A stretch of 64,000 nt of DNA from the NCBI RefSeq assembly GCF_010500245.1, contig NZ_JAAGOX010000057.1, forward strand, positions 1-64,000, in the 5' to 3' direction. The translations under genes and the position numbers were made by a program. The stretch comes from Ruegeria sp. PrR005. Lineage in GTDB: Bacteria > Pseudomonadota > Alphaproteobacteria > Rhodobacterales > Rhodobacteraceae. Position 1 is the stretch's first letter; the number at the start of each line of letters is the position of its first letter. The notes under the pieces were generated by a model, which was not told the DNA's origin, searched no databases, and was given only the letters and a program-made list of their open reading frames with translations. Below, piece after piece: positions 26,015 to 31,091 of this stretch.

Positions 26015-26932
26015 TCAGAGACCGAGGCTCTCGTCGAGGCCGAGCATGATGTTGAGGTTCTGCACCGCCGCGCCCGAGGCGCCCTTGCCCAGGTTGTCAA
26101 GGAGCGCAATCAGCACCGCTCCGCCGGTGTCGGGATTGCCATGCACCGACAGCTCCAGCCGGTTGGTGCCATTGAGGCGACGCGGGTCGATCCGGGCGCC
26201 GTAATGGTCCGGCGCGACAACCGAGACAAAGGCGCTGCCGGCGTAATGCTCGGCCAGGGCGGAATGAAGCGCGGCGCTTTCGCCCGGCTCCAGGTGCGGC
26301 AGCGGCACCTGCACGATCATCCCCTGTTCATAGGGGCCGACCGAGGGCACGAAAACCGGCCGCCGCGACAGGCCCACATGCGCGATGATCTCGGGCAGGT
26401 GCTTGTGCCGCTGGTCGGTGGCATAGACGAAGGGGCCGTCGGTCTGACCGCTTTCGAACTCGGCGATCATCGACTTGCCGCCGCCGGAATAGCCGCTGAT
26501 GGCGTTGATGCTGAGCGCCGCATCGGCGGCGATCAGACCGCGCTGGACCAGCGGGTGCAAGAGCGCGATGGCACCGGTGGAGTAACAGCCGGGGTTCGAC
26601 ACGAACTGACCGCTGGCGATCCGGTCGCGCAGGCCGCTCTCCATCTCGGGGAAGCCGAAGACCCAGTCGGGATCGACCCGGTGGGCGGTACTGGCGTCGA
26701 TCAGCCGGGTGCCGGTGCCCGCCAGTTCGGCCACGATCTCGATCGCGGCAGCATCAGGCAGGCAGAGAATGCCGACATCGGCTTCGGCAAAGGCGGCCAA
26801 CCGGGCATCGGTATTCTTGCGATCGGCCTCGCCCAGGGTGACGAGACGGATATCGTCCCGCCCTTCGAGCCGGGCGCGGATCTGGAGGCCGGTGGTTCCG
26901 ACCTCGCCATCGATGAAGACCTTGTGTGTCAT
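26015..26932 (-). CDS. argC: N-acetyl-gamma-glutamyl-phosphate reductase, short type
   Basis: A 305-residue protein (type 2, shorter than the roughly 345-residue type 1). It shows the NADP fold HKVFIDGEVGTTGLQIRARL, the active-site Cys in NPGCYSTGAIALL, and the His in the later region (YGARIDPRRLNGTNRLELSV). It reduces N-acetylglutamyl phosphate to the semialdehyde in arginine synthesis. It sits 88 bases after argF on the same strand and 28 bases before the ACT-GNAT gene, so a common transcript is likely. Confidence 0.94.
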   Translation of the reverse strand: MTHKVFIDGEVGTTGLQIRARLEGRDDIRLVTLGEADRKNTDARLAAFAEADVGILCLPDAAAIEIVAELAGTGTRLIDASTAHRVDPDWVFGFPEMESGLRDRIASGQFVSNPGCYSTGAIALLHPLVQRGLIAADAALSINAISGYSGGGKSMIAEFESGQTDGPFVYATDQRHKHLPEIIAHVGLSRRPVFVPSVGPYEQGMIVQVPLPHLEPGESAALHSALAEHYAGSAFVSVVAPDHYGARIDPRRLNGTNRLELSVHGNPDTGGAVLIALLDNLGKGASGAAVQNLNIMLGLDESLGL

Positions 26933-27020: not shown

Positions 27021-27947
27021 TCAAGCCCCCAGGCACCAGCGCATGATCGCTTTTTGCGCGTGCAGCCGGTTTTCCGCCTCATCGAAGATGACCGAGTTCG
27101 GGCCGTCCATCACTTCGGAGGTGGCTTCCTCCTCGCGGTGGGCGGGCAGGCAATGCATGAAGAGCGCGTCGGGCTTGGCGTGGCGCATCAGCTCGGCGTT
27201 GACCTGATAGGGCCGCAGCAGGTTGTGGCGGCGTTCCTTGGCCGATTGCGCGTCATGCATCGACACCCAGGTATCGGCGACCACCAGATCGGCGCCCTCG
27301 ACCGCCTTGAACGGGTCGCGCTCGATCACGACCTTGGAACCCTTGCGCCGGGCAAATCCCATGTATTCTTCTTCCGGGTCGAACTGAGCCGGGCCGGTGA
27401 AGGTAAGGTCAAAGCCGAACTGCCCGGCGGCATGCAGGAAGGACGAGCAGACATTGTTGCCGTCACCGGTCCAGACCACCTTCTTGCCCGCGATCGGGCC
27501 GCGATGCTCCTCAAAGGTCAGCACGTCGGCCATGATCTGGCAGGGATGGCTGCGGTCGGTCAGGCCGTTGATCACCGGCACATCGGCATATTCGGCCATC
27601 TCGGTCAGCACGGTTTCGTCGAAGGTCCGGATCATGATCATGTCGACATAACGGCTGAGCACGCGGGCGGTGTCGGCGATGGTCTCGCCATGGCCAAGCT
27701 GCATGTCATTGCCCGAGAGCACCATGGTCTGCCCGCCCATCTGTCGCACGCCGACGTCAAAGGACACGCGCGTCCGGGTCGAGGGCTTTTCGAAGATCAG
27801 GGCGACCATCCGGTCCTTGAGCGGTTGCGTGTCATCGGGCGCGGCCTTGGGCCGGCCAAGACGCGCCCGTTTCATCGCGCCTGCCTGGTCGATCATGGAC
27901 CGCAGGTCGGCGGCGTCGGTCTTGTGAATATCGAGAAAGTGATTCAT
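27021..27947 (-). CDS. argF: Ornithine carbamoyltransferase
   Basis: A 308-residue transcarbamoylase. The carbamoyl-phosphate site is [14 protein letters not shown], further motifs are [14 protein letters not shown] and the ornithine-binding/catalytic [12 protein letters not shown] near the C-terminus. It makes citrulline from ornithine. The ATG at 27947 matches the family start [15 protein letters not shown]. It lies between argD and argC; the gap to argD holds a copy of the dispersed element in antisense orientation. Confidence 0.97.
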
Positions 27948-28035: not shown

Positions 28036-29211
28036 TCAGACGGCTTCGACCTGGCTGGCGGCGGCATCCAGGCGGGTGAACGCCTCGGCGATGTCATCCT
28101 CGGTCAAGGTGAGCGGCGGCAGAAGGCGGATGACGTTGTCTGCGGCGGGGACGGTAATGACCAGGTTGTCATAGCCTGCCTTGACCACGTCGAGATTGGG
28201 CGCCTTGCATTTCAGCCCCAGCATCAGGCCGGAGCCGCGCACCTCTTCGAATACGTCAGGATGTGCTGCGACCAGCCCTTCGAGCCGCTGGCGGAGCAAT
28301 GCGGCCTTTCGGTTAACCTCGGCCAGAAAGGTCGGGTCGGCGATATGATCCATCACCGCGCAGCCCACGGCGCAGCCTAGCGGGTTGCCACCATAGGTGG
28401 AGCCATGGGTGCCTGCGGTCATGCCGCTTGCCGCCTCTTCGGTGGCCAGCACCGCGCCCAGCGGGAAGCCGCCGCCGATGCCCTTGGCCACCATCATGAT
28501 GTCGGGCGTGATGCCCGCCCATTCATGGGCAAAGAGCCGCCCTGTCCGGCCCATGCCGCATTGCACCTCGTCCAGGATCAGCAACAGGCCATGGTCGTCG
28601 CAAATCTGCCGCAGCGCCTTCAGTTCGACATCGGGGACAGGGCGGATACCGCCCTCGCCCTGCACCGGCTCGATCAGGATCGCGGCGGTTTTTTCCGTGA
28701 TCGCGTTGGTGACCCCATCCAGATCGCCGAAGGTGAGATGCACGAAACCGGGCAGCAGTGGGCCGAACCCCTTGACCATCTTTTCCGACCCCGCAGCGGC
28801 GATACCGGCCGAGGAGCGGCCATGGAAGGAGCCGTCGAAGGTGAGGATCTCGACCCGCTCGGGCTGACCCTTGTCGTAGAAATACTTGCGCGCCATCTTG
28901 ACCGCCAGTTCGCAGGCCTCGGTCCCCGAGTTGGTGAAGAAGACGGTATCGGCGAATGTATGCTCCACCAGCTTGTCGGCCAGCGCCTGCTGTTGCGGAA
29001 TGTGGTAGAGGTTGGACACATGCCACAGGTTTTGCGCCTGATCGGTCAGCGCCTTGACCAGGGCGGGATGGGCATGGCCCAGCGCGTTCACCGCGATCCC
29101 CGAACCAAGGTCAAGGAAGCGTCGGCCATCCGCCTCGGTCAGCCAGGCGCCTTCGCCTTTCACGAAGTGAAGCGGCGCGCGGTTATAGGTCGGCAGGACG
29201 GACGGAATCAT
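28036..29211 (-). CDS. argD: Acetylornithine aminotransferase
   Basis: A 391-residue class III PLP aminotransferase. [32 protein letters not shown], the PLP-lysine region [14 protein letters not shown] followed by [18 protein letters not shown], and [16 protein letters not shown] are all present. It makes N-acetylornithine for arginine synthesis and may also act on succinyl-diaminopimelate. AAGGA lies seven bases before the ATG. The 5' leader contains a candidate arginine-rich peptide (29327-29380) and a stable hairpin at 29237-29259. Confidence 0.96.
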
Positions 29212-29236: not shown

Positions 29237-29259
29237 CCCCGATGCAGGGCATAGCGGGG
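29237..29259 (-). promoter_or_regulatory. Stable hairpin in the argD leader
   Basis: Stem CCCCG-ATGC / GCAT-CGGGG (9 bp with a 2-base bulge) in the argD 5' leader, ending about 15 bases before the Shine-Dalgarno sequence. Two more dyads lie between it and the leader peptide: TGCGCG / CGCGCA (29288-29310) and GCCGC / GCGGC around the leader stop (29322-29335). No U-tract follows any of them, so intrinsic termination is not evident. Confidence 0.4.
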
Positions 29260-29326
29260 CGGTCAGGTCAATGTCTGGAACAGGCGTTGCGCGGGAAAAT
29301 CGGGCGCGCATGAATCAAACGGCCGC

Positions 29327-29380
29327 TTAGGCGGCTGCGCGTCGGCGTCGGAGAGACGGGATATGAGCGTGTTTGATCAT
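29327..29380 (-). CDS. Candidate arginine leader peptide upstream of argD
   Basis: A 17-codon frame on the minus strand, MIKHAHIPSLRRRRAAA then TAA, lying 115 bases upstream of argD. Four arginine codons in a row (CGA CGC CGA CGC) sit just before a dyad that spans the stop codon. An in-frame ATG four codons upstream (29392) gives a 21-residue form; GGAA before the second ATG is a weak ribosome-binding site and favours the shorter form. The layout resembles amino-acid attenuator leaders (his, trp, leu), but no U-tract terminator is visible. Function is inferred from codon content and position. Confidence 0.5.
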   Translation of the reverse strand: MIKHAHIPSLRRRRAAA

Positions 29381-29409
29381 GGCGCGTTCCATAACGGAGG
29401 ATTCGCGCA

Positions 29410-29432
29410 AAGAAAACCCCTTTTGGAAGGGG
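29410..29432 (-). terminator. Rho-independent terminator of the zinc-ribbon gene
   Basis: Minus-strand stem CCCCTT / AAGGGG with loop CCAA, followed by TTTTCTTT, 20 bases after the zinc-ribbon stop. It separates that gene from the argD leader, so the arg genes should have their own promoter near here. Confidence 0.8.
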
Positions 29433-29451: not shown

Positions 29452-29709
29452 TCAGGCTGCGCGCCAGCGGTCCAGCCGCTTCATCCCGCGTGTAAAGGCC
29501 CAGGCCAGTATGCGCGGCATGCCCTTGGCGACCAGCGCTTCCACACAATGGGCCTGAAACTCTTCATAGGTCGCGTCCGGGTGCCGGAAGGCGCCGTTTT
29601 CATAGCAAAGCGAACACCATTTGGTGCTGCGCGCGCCGTCCGCCTCGCTGCCGCCGCCCGCCGGGTCCTTGCTCAGCGGCATGCCGCAGCTTTGACAGGT
29701 CTGTCCCAT
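29452..29709 (-). CDS. Putative zinc-ribbon protein
   Basis: An 85-residue protein matching the putative zinc-ribbon family: QTCQSCGMPL at the N-terminus and KWCSLCYENGAF, giving two CxxC pairs, then FQAHCVEALVAKGMPRILAW. It is probably cytoplasmic and metal-binding; function is unknown. It is divergent from a MerR gene, and its promoter has the stretched spacer typical of MerR-activated promoters (29740-29771). A terminator follows at 29410. Confidence 0.8.
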   Translation of the reverse strand: MGQTCQSCGMPLSKDPAGGGSEADGARSTKWCSLCYENGAFRHPDATYEEFQAHCVEALVAKGMPRILAWAFTRGMKRLDRWRAA

Positions 29710-29790: not shown

Positions 29791-30156
29791 ATGCGGATCG
29801 GGGAACTGTCGCGACGCAGCGGGCTGAGCCGAGACACGTTGCGCTTTTACGAAAGACAGGGGCTGATCCACTCGGAACCGGGGGCAGAGGCGACCAACAG
29901 CTATCGCGACTATCCCGAAGAGGCGCTGATCACGCTGGACCAGATCGCCGACGCGCAGGCGGCAGGGATGAGCATTGCCGATCTGGCCATGTTGATGGGC
30001 CAACTCCAGGCCGCCGATCCCGACGGGTTCGATGGCGAGGCGTTTCTGGACGCACGCATTGCCGAGGTCGAGGCGCGCATCGCCCGGGCCGAACGGTTCC
30101 TGGAAAGCCTGCACCAGGCGCGCGCGGCGCTGGCGGCACCGCCGGTTCTGCTCTGA
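29791..30156 (+). CDS. MerR-family transcriptional regulator
   Basis: A 121-residue regulator: winged helix-turn-helix at residues 1-70 (MRIGELSRRSGLSRDTLRFY, ERQGLIHSEP) and a coiled-coil C-terminus (ARIAEVEARIARAERFLESL). It has no cysteines, so it is unlikely to be a metal sensor of the MerR/CueR/ZntR type and may respond to an organic ligand or redox cue bound elsewhere. It is divergent from the zinc-ribbon gene, whose promoter carries the fitting operator. Confidence 0.9.
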   Translation: MRIGELSRRSGLSRDTLRFYERQGLIHSEPGAEATNSYRDYPEEALITLDQIADAQAAGMSIADLAMLMGQLQAADPDGFDGEAFLDARIAEVEARIARAERFLESLHQARAALAAPPVLL

Positions 30157-30206
30157 GCGAAGCGTTGCCTCTTGCCAATTACGCGGCACTCGGTCACCGC
30201 TGGCGC

Positions 30207-31091
30207 ATGTTCGAGGCGAAACCGCAAAACCCCGCACTGGCCGCGGCACTGATCTTTGCCGCCACCGCGTTTATCGCGGGCACCACGCTGTTGGCCAAAG
30301 CGCTGGGAACCGGCGCGTTGGGGCCGGCGCTGCCGGCGTTTCAGGTCAGCCATGGCCGCTTCCTGTTCGCCTTCATCGCCATTGGCGGCGCGGTGGCGGT
30401 GATGCGCCCCCGTCTGGCGCGCCCGCACTGGCGGCTGCACCTGGGGCGCACCACCTTTGGCTGGGGCGGGGTGACGTTGATGTTCGCCGCCGTGGCCCAT
30501 ATCCCGATGGCCGATGCGACAGCGATCGCCTTTCTGAACCCAGTCTTTGCCATGGTTCTTGCGATTCCGCTGCTGGGCGAACGGGTCGGGCCTTGGCGCT
30601 GGGGCGCCGCTGTCGTTGCTCTTCTGGGCGCGATGATCCTCTTGCGGCCGACCCCCGGCAGCTTCCAGCCCGCCGCCCTGCTGGCGTTGGCGGCCGCAGC
30701 GGTAATGGGGATGGAGCTCATCTTCATCAAGAAGCTTTCGGGCCGGGAACGGCCGATCCAGATCCTCCTGGTCAACAACGCGATGGGGCTGGTCATTGCC
30801 ACCGCCGCAGTCTGGCCGGTCTGGCAATCGCCGCTGCCCGCCCAATGGGCGGCGCTGGCGGGGATCGGGGGGCTGATGGCCTGTGCGCAGGCCTGTTTCG
30901 TCAATGGCATGGCGCGGGCGGATGCCTCTTTTGTGGCGCCGTTCAGCTATGCCACGCTGATCTTTGCCGCGCTCTATGACATGGCGGTGTTCGGTGTGAT
31001 CCCCGATGCGATCAGCCTGGGCGGCGCCGCCATCATCCTGACCGGCGCCCTGATCCTGGCCTGGCGCGAAGGACGCGCCGTGCGGCGCTGA
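30207..31091 (+). CDS. EamA/DMT-family transporter
   Basis: A 294-residue protein with ten hydrophobic segments in two EamA repeats (ALIFAATAFIAGTTLLAKAL ... ALAAAAVMGMELIFIKKLSG ...), the drug/metabolite transporter layout. The substrate is unknown. The ATG at 30207 is preferred; an upstream TTG at 30165 would add 14 residues. It begins 50 bases after merR on the same strand. Confidence 0.85.
   Translation: MFEAKPQNPALAAALIFAATAFIAGTTLLAKALGTGALGPALPAFQVSHGRFLFAFIAIGGAVAVMRPRLARPHWRLHLGRTTFGWGGVTLMFAAVAHIPMADATAIAFLNPVFAMVLAIPLLGERVGPWRWGAAVVALLGAMILLRPTPGSFQPAALLALAAAAVMGMELIFIKKLSGRERPIQILLVNNAMGLVIATAAVWPVWQSPLPAQWAALAGIGGLMACAQACFVNGMARADASFVAPFSYATLIFAALYDMAVFGVIPDAISLGGAAIILTGALILAWREGRAVRR

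Follow-up and report, generated by a model that had tools for sequence, protein, structure and literature searches.

How arginine synthesis is controlled at the argD-argF-argC locus of Ruegeria sp. PrR005 is not evident from the usual model. Arginine operons are usually described as being under the control of the ArgR repressor. We found the Arg-repressor domain (PF01316) in none of 149 Rhodobacteraceae genomes, this one included, with 9 of 14 controls matched, and an ArgR-controlled operon was therefore not supported. The 64,000-nt stretch of DNA analysed here (the window) carries in front of argD a short reading frame with four consecutive Arg codons, which a first-pass annotation had taken for the leader peptide of an arginine attenuator. 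Leader-peptide attenuation is an old and well-known kind of control, and the 2004 study of Vitreschak et al. is said to be a survey of proteobacterial attenuators. Among the literature matches listed, with subscription papers and supplements outside the scope, no description of an Arg leader before argD was found, and term searches of the main texts of PMC8632094, PMC11109978, and PMC2965389 found none either. If the leader acts as proposed, arginine joins the amino acids sensed by the leader peptides of biosynthetic operons, and a marine and soil family with no detected Arg-repressor domain has a concrete and easily tested answer to how arginine is sensed.

The layout given in the first-pass annotation was borne out by the sequence (Table 1). 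The frame with its Arg run is present on the minus strand, with 115 nt between its stop codon and the argD ATG; a terminator of the preceding gene was found directly upstream of it; all three proposed dyads exist; and NCBIfam confirmed all three gene names in the order argD-argF-argC. The leader ORF in the window is preceded by no Shine-Dalgarno sequence. The upstream terminator has a T-tail that overlaps the leader's -35-like hexamer, and it should insulate the leader from read-through. Further upstream, an 85-aa Cys-containing protein (29452-29709, minus), zinc-ribbon-like by eye and without an NCBIfam match, is followed by a 121-aa frame resembling by eye a MerR-type regulator (29791-30156, plus), which adjoins a frame resembling by eye a drug/metabolite exporter (30165-31091). 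Among other arg genes, no Arg leader was found before argG in five of five genus genomes, and the Arg-rich frames seen before argJ in three of five had no common form.

Table 1. Coordinates of the leader region and operon within the window
Feature	Positions	Strand	Basis or remark
Preceding gene's intrinsic terminator, CCCCTTCCAAAAGGGG TTTTCTTTGC	29417..29432	minus	terminator scan, good score
-35-like hexamer TTTTCT	29411..29416	minus	assigned by eye; 17-nt spacer to -10
-10-like hexamer TATGGA	29388..29393	minus	predicted transcription start is the leader ATG
Leader ORF MIKHAHIPSLRRRRAAA	29327..29380	minus	ATG 29380-29378, TAA 29329-29327
Stem I 5' arm AUGAUCAAAC (start codon and next seven nt)	29371..29380	minus	own-versus-cross pairing, 33-sequence alignment
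Sensor codons CGA CGC CGA CGC (four Arg)	29339..29350	minus	read from sequence
Hairpin II, GCCGC-CTAA-GCGGC, across leader stop codon	29322..29335	minus	terminator scan
Stem I 3' arm GUUUGAUUCAU, pairs with leader start	29310..29320	minus	pairing and alignment
Hairpin III	29288..29310	minus	counterparts in relatives by raw hairpin energy; 33-sequence alignment
TTGAC box	29267..29271	minus	recurrence before argD in relatives
Hairpin IV, just upstream of argD ribosome-binding site	29237..29259	minus	covarying arms
argD, acetylornithine transaminase	28036..29211	minus	NCBIfam NF002325 632.5 bits, TIGR00707 457.5 bits
argF, ornithine carbamoyltransferase	27021..27947	minus	NCBIfam TIGR00658 372.5 bits; start at MNHFLDIHK by eye
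argC, N-acetyl-gamma-glutamyl-phosphate reductase	26015..26932	minus	NCBIfam TIGR01851 369.7 bits; start by eye

Two refutation tests of the attenuator reading had been set beforehand, loss of the Arg run in relatives and a transcription start downstream of the leader; conservation is taken up first. argD was matched at E <=1e-150 in 144 of the 149 sampled Rhodobacteraceae genomes and in five of five genus genomes. Candidate leaders were ATG frames of 6-26 codons whose stop fell 60-260 nt ahead of argD, and a locus was counted as leader-positive when a four-residue window held at least two Arg and CGACG was present. An Arg-rich leader was found in 114 of the 144 genomes, and the window was RRRR in 75. 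Dinucleotide shuffling of all 144 loci, repeated 20 times, gave corresponding means of 4.35 (maximum 7) and 0.1 (maximum 1), and on the opposite strand of the identical regions the counts were 3 and 8 of 144 loci, respectively. A looser rule, with GTG starts allowed and CGACG not required, was applied to named relatives (Ruegeria, Leisingera, Phaeobacter, Sulfitobacter, Roseovarius, Salipiger, and others); among the best 80 of at least 575 loci, the best four-residue window held four, three, or two Arg in 57, 18, and 5, respectively. The two sets are partly overlapping, not independent. The residues ahead of the Arg run differed widely among relatives while the run itself was kept, as was its spacing, with the leader ATG 138-191 nt (5-95% range) before argD. 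These results supported the reading of the frame as the leader peptide of an arginine attenuator, since the Arg run is kept in most sampled family genomes.

By the stricter criteria 30 of the 144 genomes were leader-negative, and 19 of these were among the 34 with the most divergent argD; one locus (L078) was counted negative although by eye it may have an Arg leader with a GTG start. When several frames tied, starts with a TA box were preferred, followed by the shortest frame, and some of the chosen starts are possibly internal ATGs (e.g. L016). The genus sisters L002, L004, and L005 were left out of the 144-genome leader and shuffle counts, and L002-L005 were left out of the counts for start alignment, TTGAC, codons, covariation, hairpins, T-tracts, and folding.

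We then compared the codons of the Arg runs, taking from each leader just the first stretch with at least two Arg. This stretch comprised only two codons in 31 of 113 leaders, with a median position of codon 8 in these 31. Over the 113 leaders (390 codons), CGA was used 198 times, CGC 172, CGT 17, CGG 2, and AGG 1, compared with 25 CGC, 25 CGG, 4 CGT, and 3 CGA among the 57 Arg codons of argD, argF, and argC in the window. A tRNA with anticodon ICG reads CGU, CGC, and CGA, and of these CGA is its poorest codon. Since the runs use CGA, CGC, and CGT and almost never CGG, the run looks built to sense a single isoacceptor. A second type of leader ended in CGA CGA GCC stop, with peptides like MTKGHPIRRA (L015, L019, L022, L028, L040, L044, L066, and L102); its CGA CGA pair may be slow to decode, and its best hairpin was enclosed by the start stem instead of following it.

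The leader looks to be translated as a leaderless ORF, with transcription starting at its own ATG. A consensus promoter scan of the window returned no promoters, and the case for a start at the leader ATG therefore rests on comparison. TA was found 12-13 nt before the leader ATG in 93 of 114 leader-positive relatives, compared with 3.3% of random positions, a count somewhat favoured by the tie-break towards starts with a TA box. C at -1 was found in 87 of the 114, compared with 33% at random. In the alignment of 108 relatives, which had been preselected for the TA box, T occupied -35, counted from the leader ATG, in 81%, the TA step stood at -13/-12, and C was at -1 in 78%. A Shine-Dalgarno-like word preceded the leader in only 4 of 114 relatives (10% at random) and argD in 109 of the 114 leader-positive relatives. 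The trpL attenuator ORF of S. meliloti is reported to be leaderless, with its transcription start at the AUG (PMC10117765).

The leaderless start and the choice of codons had not been foreseen in the initial reading, and neither had a third feature, the pairing of the leader start with RNA beyond the stop codon (stem I). When the leader start of each of 113 loci was paired with its own post-stop RNA or with that of other genomes, the pairing energies were -11.58 and -9.49 kcal/mol (z -9.95); the control stretch inside the ORF gave z -2.1. With a 12-nt sliding window, the signal was strongest when the window started at the ATG (z -12.1), fell to z -4.9 at 3 nt later, and ranged from z -2.2 to +0.8 in ten other windows between -36 and +30, each at least 6 nt away. 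The signal thus begins at the predicted transcript start, consistent with an mRNA whose 5' end is the AUG. Counterparts of stem I were formed by different sequences in divergent relatives. In the 33-sequence alignment, RNAalifold gave a covariation term of only -0.18, with changes on both sides in 4 of 18 pairs, because most stem I positions are invariant within this clade; at the level of sequence comparison, the case for stem I is carried by the own-versus-cross tests on divergent genera.

A leader model, in which two RNAalifold pairs were kept, had its strongest match at the argD site in all five genus genomes, this one and four sisters. One extra weak match (E 0.014-0.07) was found in four of the five, and in this genome it precedes a leuA-like gene, named by eye as 2-isopropylmalate synthase. 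The model recovered the argD site in 7 of 21 genomes and failed on divergent family members whose sequence shows a leader (e.g. G010, the same as L038). It is therefore insensitive, and the lack of matches elsewhere proves little. No Rfam family matched the window at the gathering threshold or the upstream regions of 20 relatives at E <=1.

The dyads of the first-pass annotation, for which covariation in relatives had been named as a check, covaried unequally. Hairpin III covaried among 33 sequences, in which the paired alignment columns 81-99 had both partners altered in 7 sequences and the pair 82-98 in 1, and its counterparts in relatives have a pyrimidine-rich (C/U), G-poor tail. The arms of hairpin IV covaried over 115 loci (own-versus-cross z -9.5), and hairpin IV was not part of the RNAalifold consensus of the 33-sequence alignment. 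Hairpin II, which spans the stop codon, gave a weak signal in relatives (z -3.75). Given this weak covariation, and with CGTC found after the stop in 34 of 114 loci, hairpin II was rejected as a universal pause hairpin.

Comparison among genomes had brought out the Arg run, its codon choice, promoter-like signals, the covariation of stem I, and the lack of a detectable Arg-repressor domain. From these we favoured, with a probability of roughly 55%, a cis-acting, Arg-tRNA-gated, Rho-type attenuator of argD-argF-argC, in which the transcription start, the stalling of ribosomes, the direction of regulation, and the involvement of Rho are predictions from sequence. Transcription would begin at the leader's own AUG, and ribosomes would initiate on this 5'-terminal AUG without a Shine-Dalgarno sequence and meet a run of Arg codons read by one isoacceptor (CGA/CGC/CGU). 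If charged tRNA-Arg is in short supply, a ribosome would stall on the run and shield the C-rich leader ORF, and the mRNA would extend to argD. When Arg-tRNA is plentiful, ribosomes would leave the ORF, C-rich and G-poor RNA would be exposed, and expression would end before argD. This cut-off would most likely be Rho-dependent termination, with mRNA decay as the next candidate. Rho was favoured over an intrinsic terminator because no U-tract is conserved, and the C-rich, G-poor RNA between leader and argD fits Rho (at 40-50 nt past the leader stop in relatives, C 0.41 and G 0.15). Stem I would form only when the start codon is free of ribosomes, and could thus report ribosome occupancy.

To follow these structures, 96 loci were folded in four states defined by ribosome footprints: free, at the first Arg codon, at the stop codon, and at the start codon. 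The modelled probability of hairpin III was 0.59 in free RNA, 0.70 with the ribosome stalled on Arg, 0.56 with it at the stop, and 0.59 during initiation; that of stem I was 0.52, 0.47, 0.38, and 0.00, respectively, the last value following by construction from blocking of the 5' arm. A uniform terminator/antiterminator exchange, as in the classical four-segment switch, was not found in this model of 96 loci, and the position of stem I relative to hairpin III varied among loci. Since hairpin III and stem I did not exchange consistently, no defined antiterminator is claimed. In most four-Arg leaders an Arg-stalled ribosome would leave the 5' arm of stem I uncovered; against the favoured reading, a ribosome stalled in the two-Arg leaders would cover part of that arm.

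The output may instead be post-transcriptional, with the position of the ribosome setting the decay of the mRNA or access to the argD ribosome-binding site. We considered this a less likely alternative, ranking next after the Rho-type attenuator. Control of this kind is described for Salmonella speF, where two Arg codons of orf34 steer sensitivity to RNase G (PMC6386406). At the argD leader, stem I would close the extreme 5' end of the RNA, given a transcription start at the ATG, and hairpin IV, whose arms covary, lies just 5' of the argD Shine-Dalgarno sequence, although in the alignment the AAGGA of argD lies 3' of this hairpin. RNAalifold also placed a nearly invariant three-pair hairpin, GGA-UGA-UCC, on the argD Shine-Dalgarno sequence in 33 relatives. 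In this folding model it would fit translational control, but being invariant it has no covariation in its favour. This small hairpin, together with a terminator-like flag on the window's stop-codon hairpin, slightly lowered our confidence in the Rho-type attenuator.

The TTGAC box raised a separate question, as TTGAC and hairpin IV might form another promoter, responsible for most argD expression, and leave the leader a minor role; the two could coexist. Of 143 loci, 127 had TTGAC no more than 110 nt from argD, and in 114 of these 127 it stood 51-70 nt before the ATG; the 13 copies at other distances, counted across leader-positive and leader-negative loci together, may be chance. It was found near argD regardless of the leader, in 102 of 113 leader-positive and 25 of 30 leader-negative loci, and was absent from the other 11 of the 113. 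The TTGAC-hairpin IV element, about as common as the leader, could be a separate transcription start that bypasses it, and such a start would yield a short, ordinary 5' UTR. What stands at the proper spacing after TTGAC in many relatives, however, is GGCAC and not a -10-like motif. The composite TTGAC-N15-18-GGCAC was unenriched in this genome (46 matches, against 46 in the reversed control), a comparison outside which the window's own copy falls, as it lacks GGCAC. In addition, the arms of hairpin IV covary as RNA would. A TTGAC-element model, which kept none of the RNAalifold pairs, found the argD locus as its sole match in this genome (E 0.016) and weak matches elsewhere in other genomes. 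The element could serve as an additional promoter or belong to the RNA switch; as the main source of argD expression we regarded it as improbable.

Still less probable was classical attenuation, in which hairpin II, III, or IV acts as an intrinsic terminator opposed by an antiterminator. The first-pass annotation had seen no U-tract terminator in the window. In the strict sense this stood, while the terminator scan marked the hairpin at the stop codon, with its tail CGTTTGATTC, as terminator-like; this tail is interrupted and forms part of stem I, and was not counted as a U-tract. Hairpins with pyrimidine-rich tails do follow the leader stop codon, and single genomes (e.g. L113 and L116) have hairpins with T-containing tails. 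The looser rule of the terminator scan was applied to the window alone and our own T-tract pattern to the relatives, and by the latter a T-rich tract lay between leader and argD in only 8 of 113 regions. An intrinsic terminator was accordingly rejected as a general feature despite the hairpin flagged in the window, and the absence of a terminator/antiterminator exchange in the state model also spoke against this reading. At one locus (L113), 69-108 nt before the argD ATG, a long G+C-rich hairpin followed by TCTTTCC was seen by eye right after the leader; the output may thus be terminator-like in some genomes.

It is very improbable that the CGACGCCGACGC block is maintained at the RNA or DNA level, as a small RNA or binding site, and that its reading frame is incidental: the exact CGA-CGC-CGA-CGC block recurs in 51 of 113 runs, which is more uniform than an Arg run requires, but in the other 62 the block differs and the frame still encodes Arg (CGT, CGG, AGG, runs of 2-6; frames preselected for Arg), and the CGTC partner lies within 25 nt of the stop in 34 of 114.

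Returning to the Rho-type attenuator, we extended it to the family with more reserve. It is conceivable, if somewhat short of an even chance, that most Rhodobacteraceae regulate arginine synthesis not through ArgR but through an RNA sensor of one tRNA-Arg isoacceptor, in which a leaderless start codon sits in a covarying long-range stem, stem and ribosome compete for the 5' end, so that the mRNA reads out ribosome occupancy, and the output is by Rho or a nuclease with no intrinsic terminator. The argD leader would be a natural test case for attenuation on a leaderless mRNA without an intrinsic terminator.

Several described systems resemble the argD leader in part. In S. meliloti, trpL/rnTrpL (PMC10117765) is likewise an attenuator with a short, leaderless ORF starting at AUG in the 5' UTR of a biosynthetic gene. 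Unlike trpL, the argD leader would sense Arg in place of Trp, has a covarying stem that includes the start codon, and has no conserved intrinsic terminator that we could find. Closer in phylogeny is the uORFC-8-2 motif, found before cysS in Rhodobacterales, with Cys-Cys usually at codons 14-15 and a proposed ribosome-mediated attenuation (PMC8632094). It shares with the argD leader the order and the tandem sensor codons, but precedes a tRNA synthetase gene, and its consensus ends in a U run, which is rare at argD.

The sensing of arginine by consecutive Arg codons is known from Salmonella orf34-speF, where Rho-dependent termination is also involved (PMC6386406). That system differs in its DUF2618 peptide domain, its polyamine gene, its host (gammaproteobacteria), and its use of Rho plus RNase G; and the N-termini of the argD leaders vary widely whereas orf34 has a conserved core peptide, a comparison made by description (PMC6386406). 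For the uORF of an S. meliloti DUF1127 gene, termination is reported to depend on whether C-rich codons close to the start of the uORF are accessible (PMC12218461). A ribosome or a paired start region can mask these codons, and similar masking would occur at the argD leader. The DUF1127 uORF is, however, a proposed monitor of ribosome availability and not of an amino acid, and the abstract of PMC12218461 mentions no Arg run.

A further likeness was found within this genome. A leader ORF with Leu/Ile codons precedes the leuA-like gene (L298:601-690, G000:C11 near 563186; also L299 and L302), with a ATGATCAA start, the N-terminus MINRADI, and a TATAAC box just upstream. It has in common with the argD leader the leaderless-type promoter box and this start, and the MINRADI N-terminus is shared with the argD leaders of some relatives (e.g. 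L193). It differs in ending in Leu/Ile codons and in preceding the gene for 2-isopropylmalate synthase, as judged by eye from its protein. Since the start of the leuA leader matches that of the argD leader, leaderless leader peptides may be a general design.
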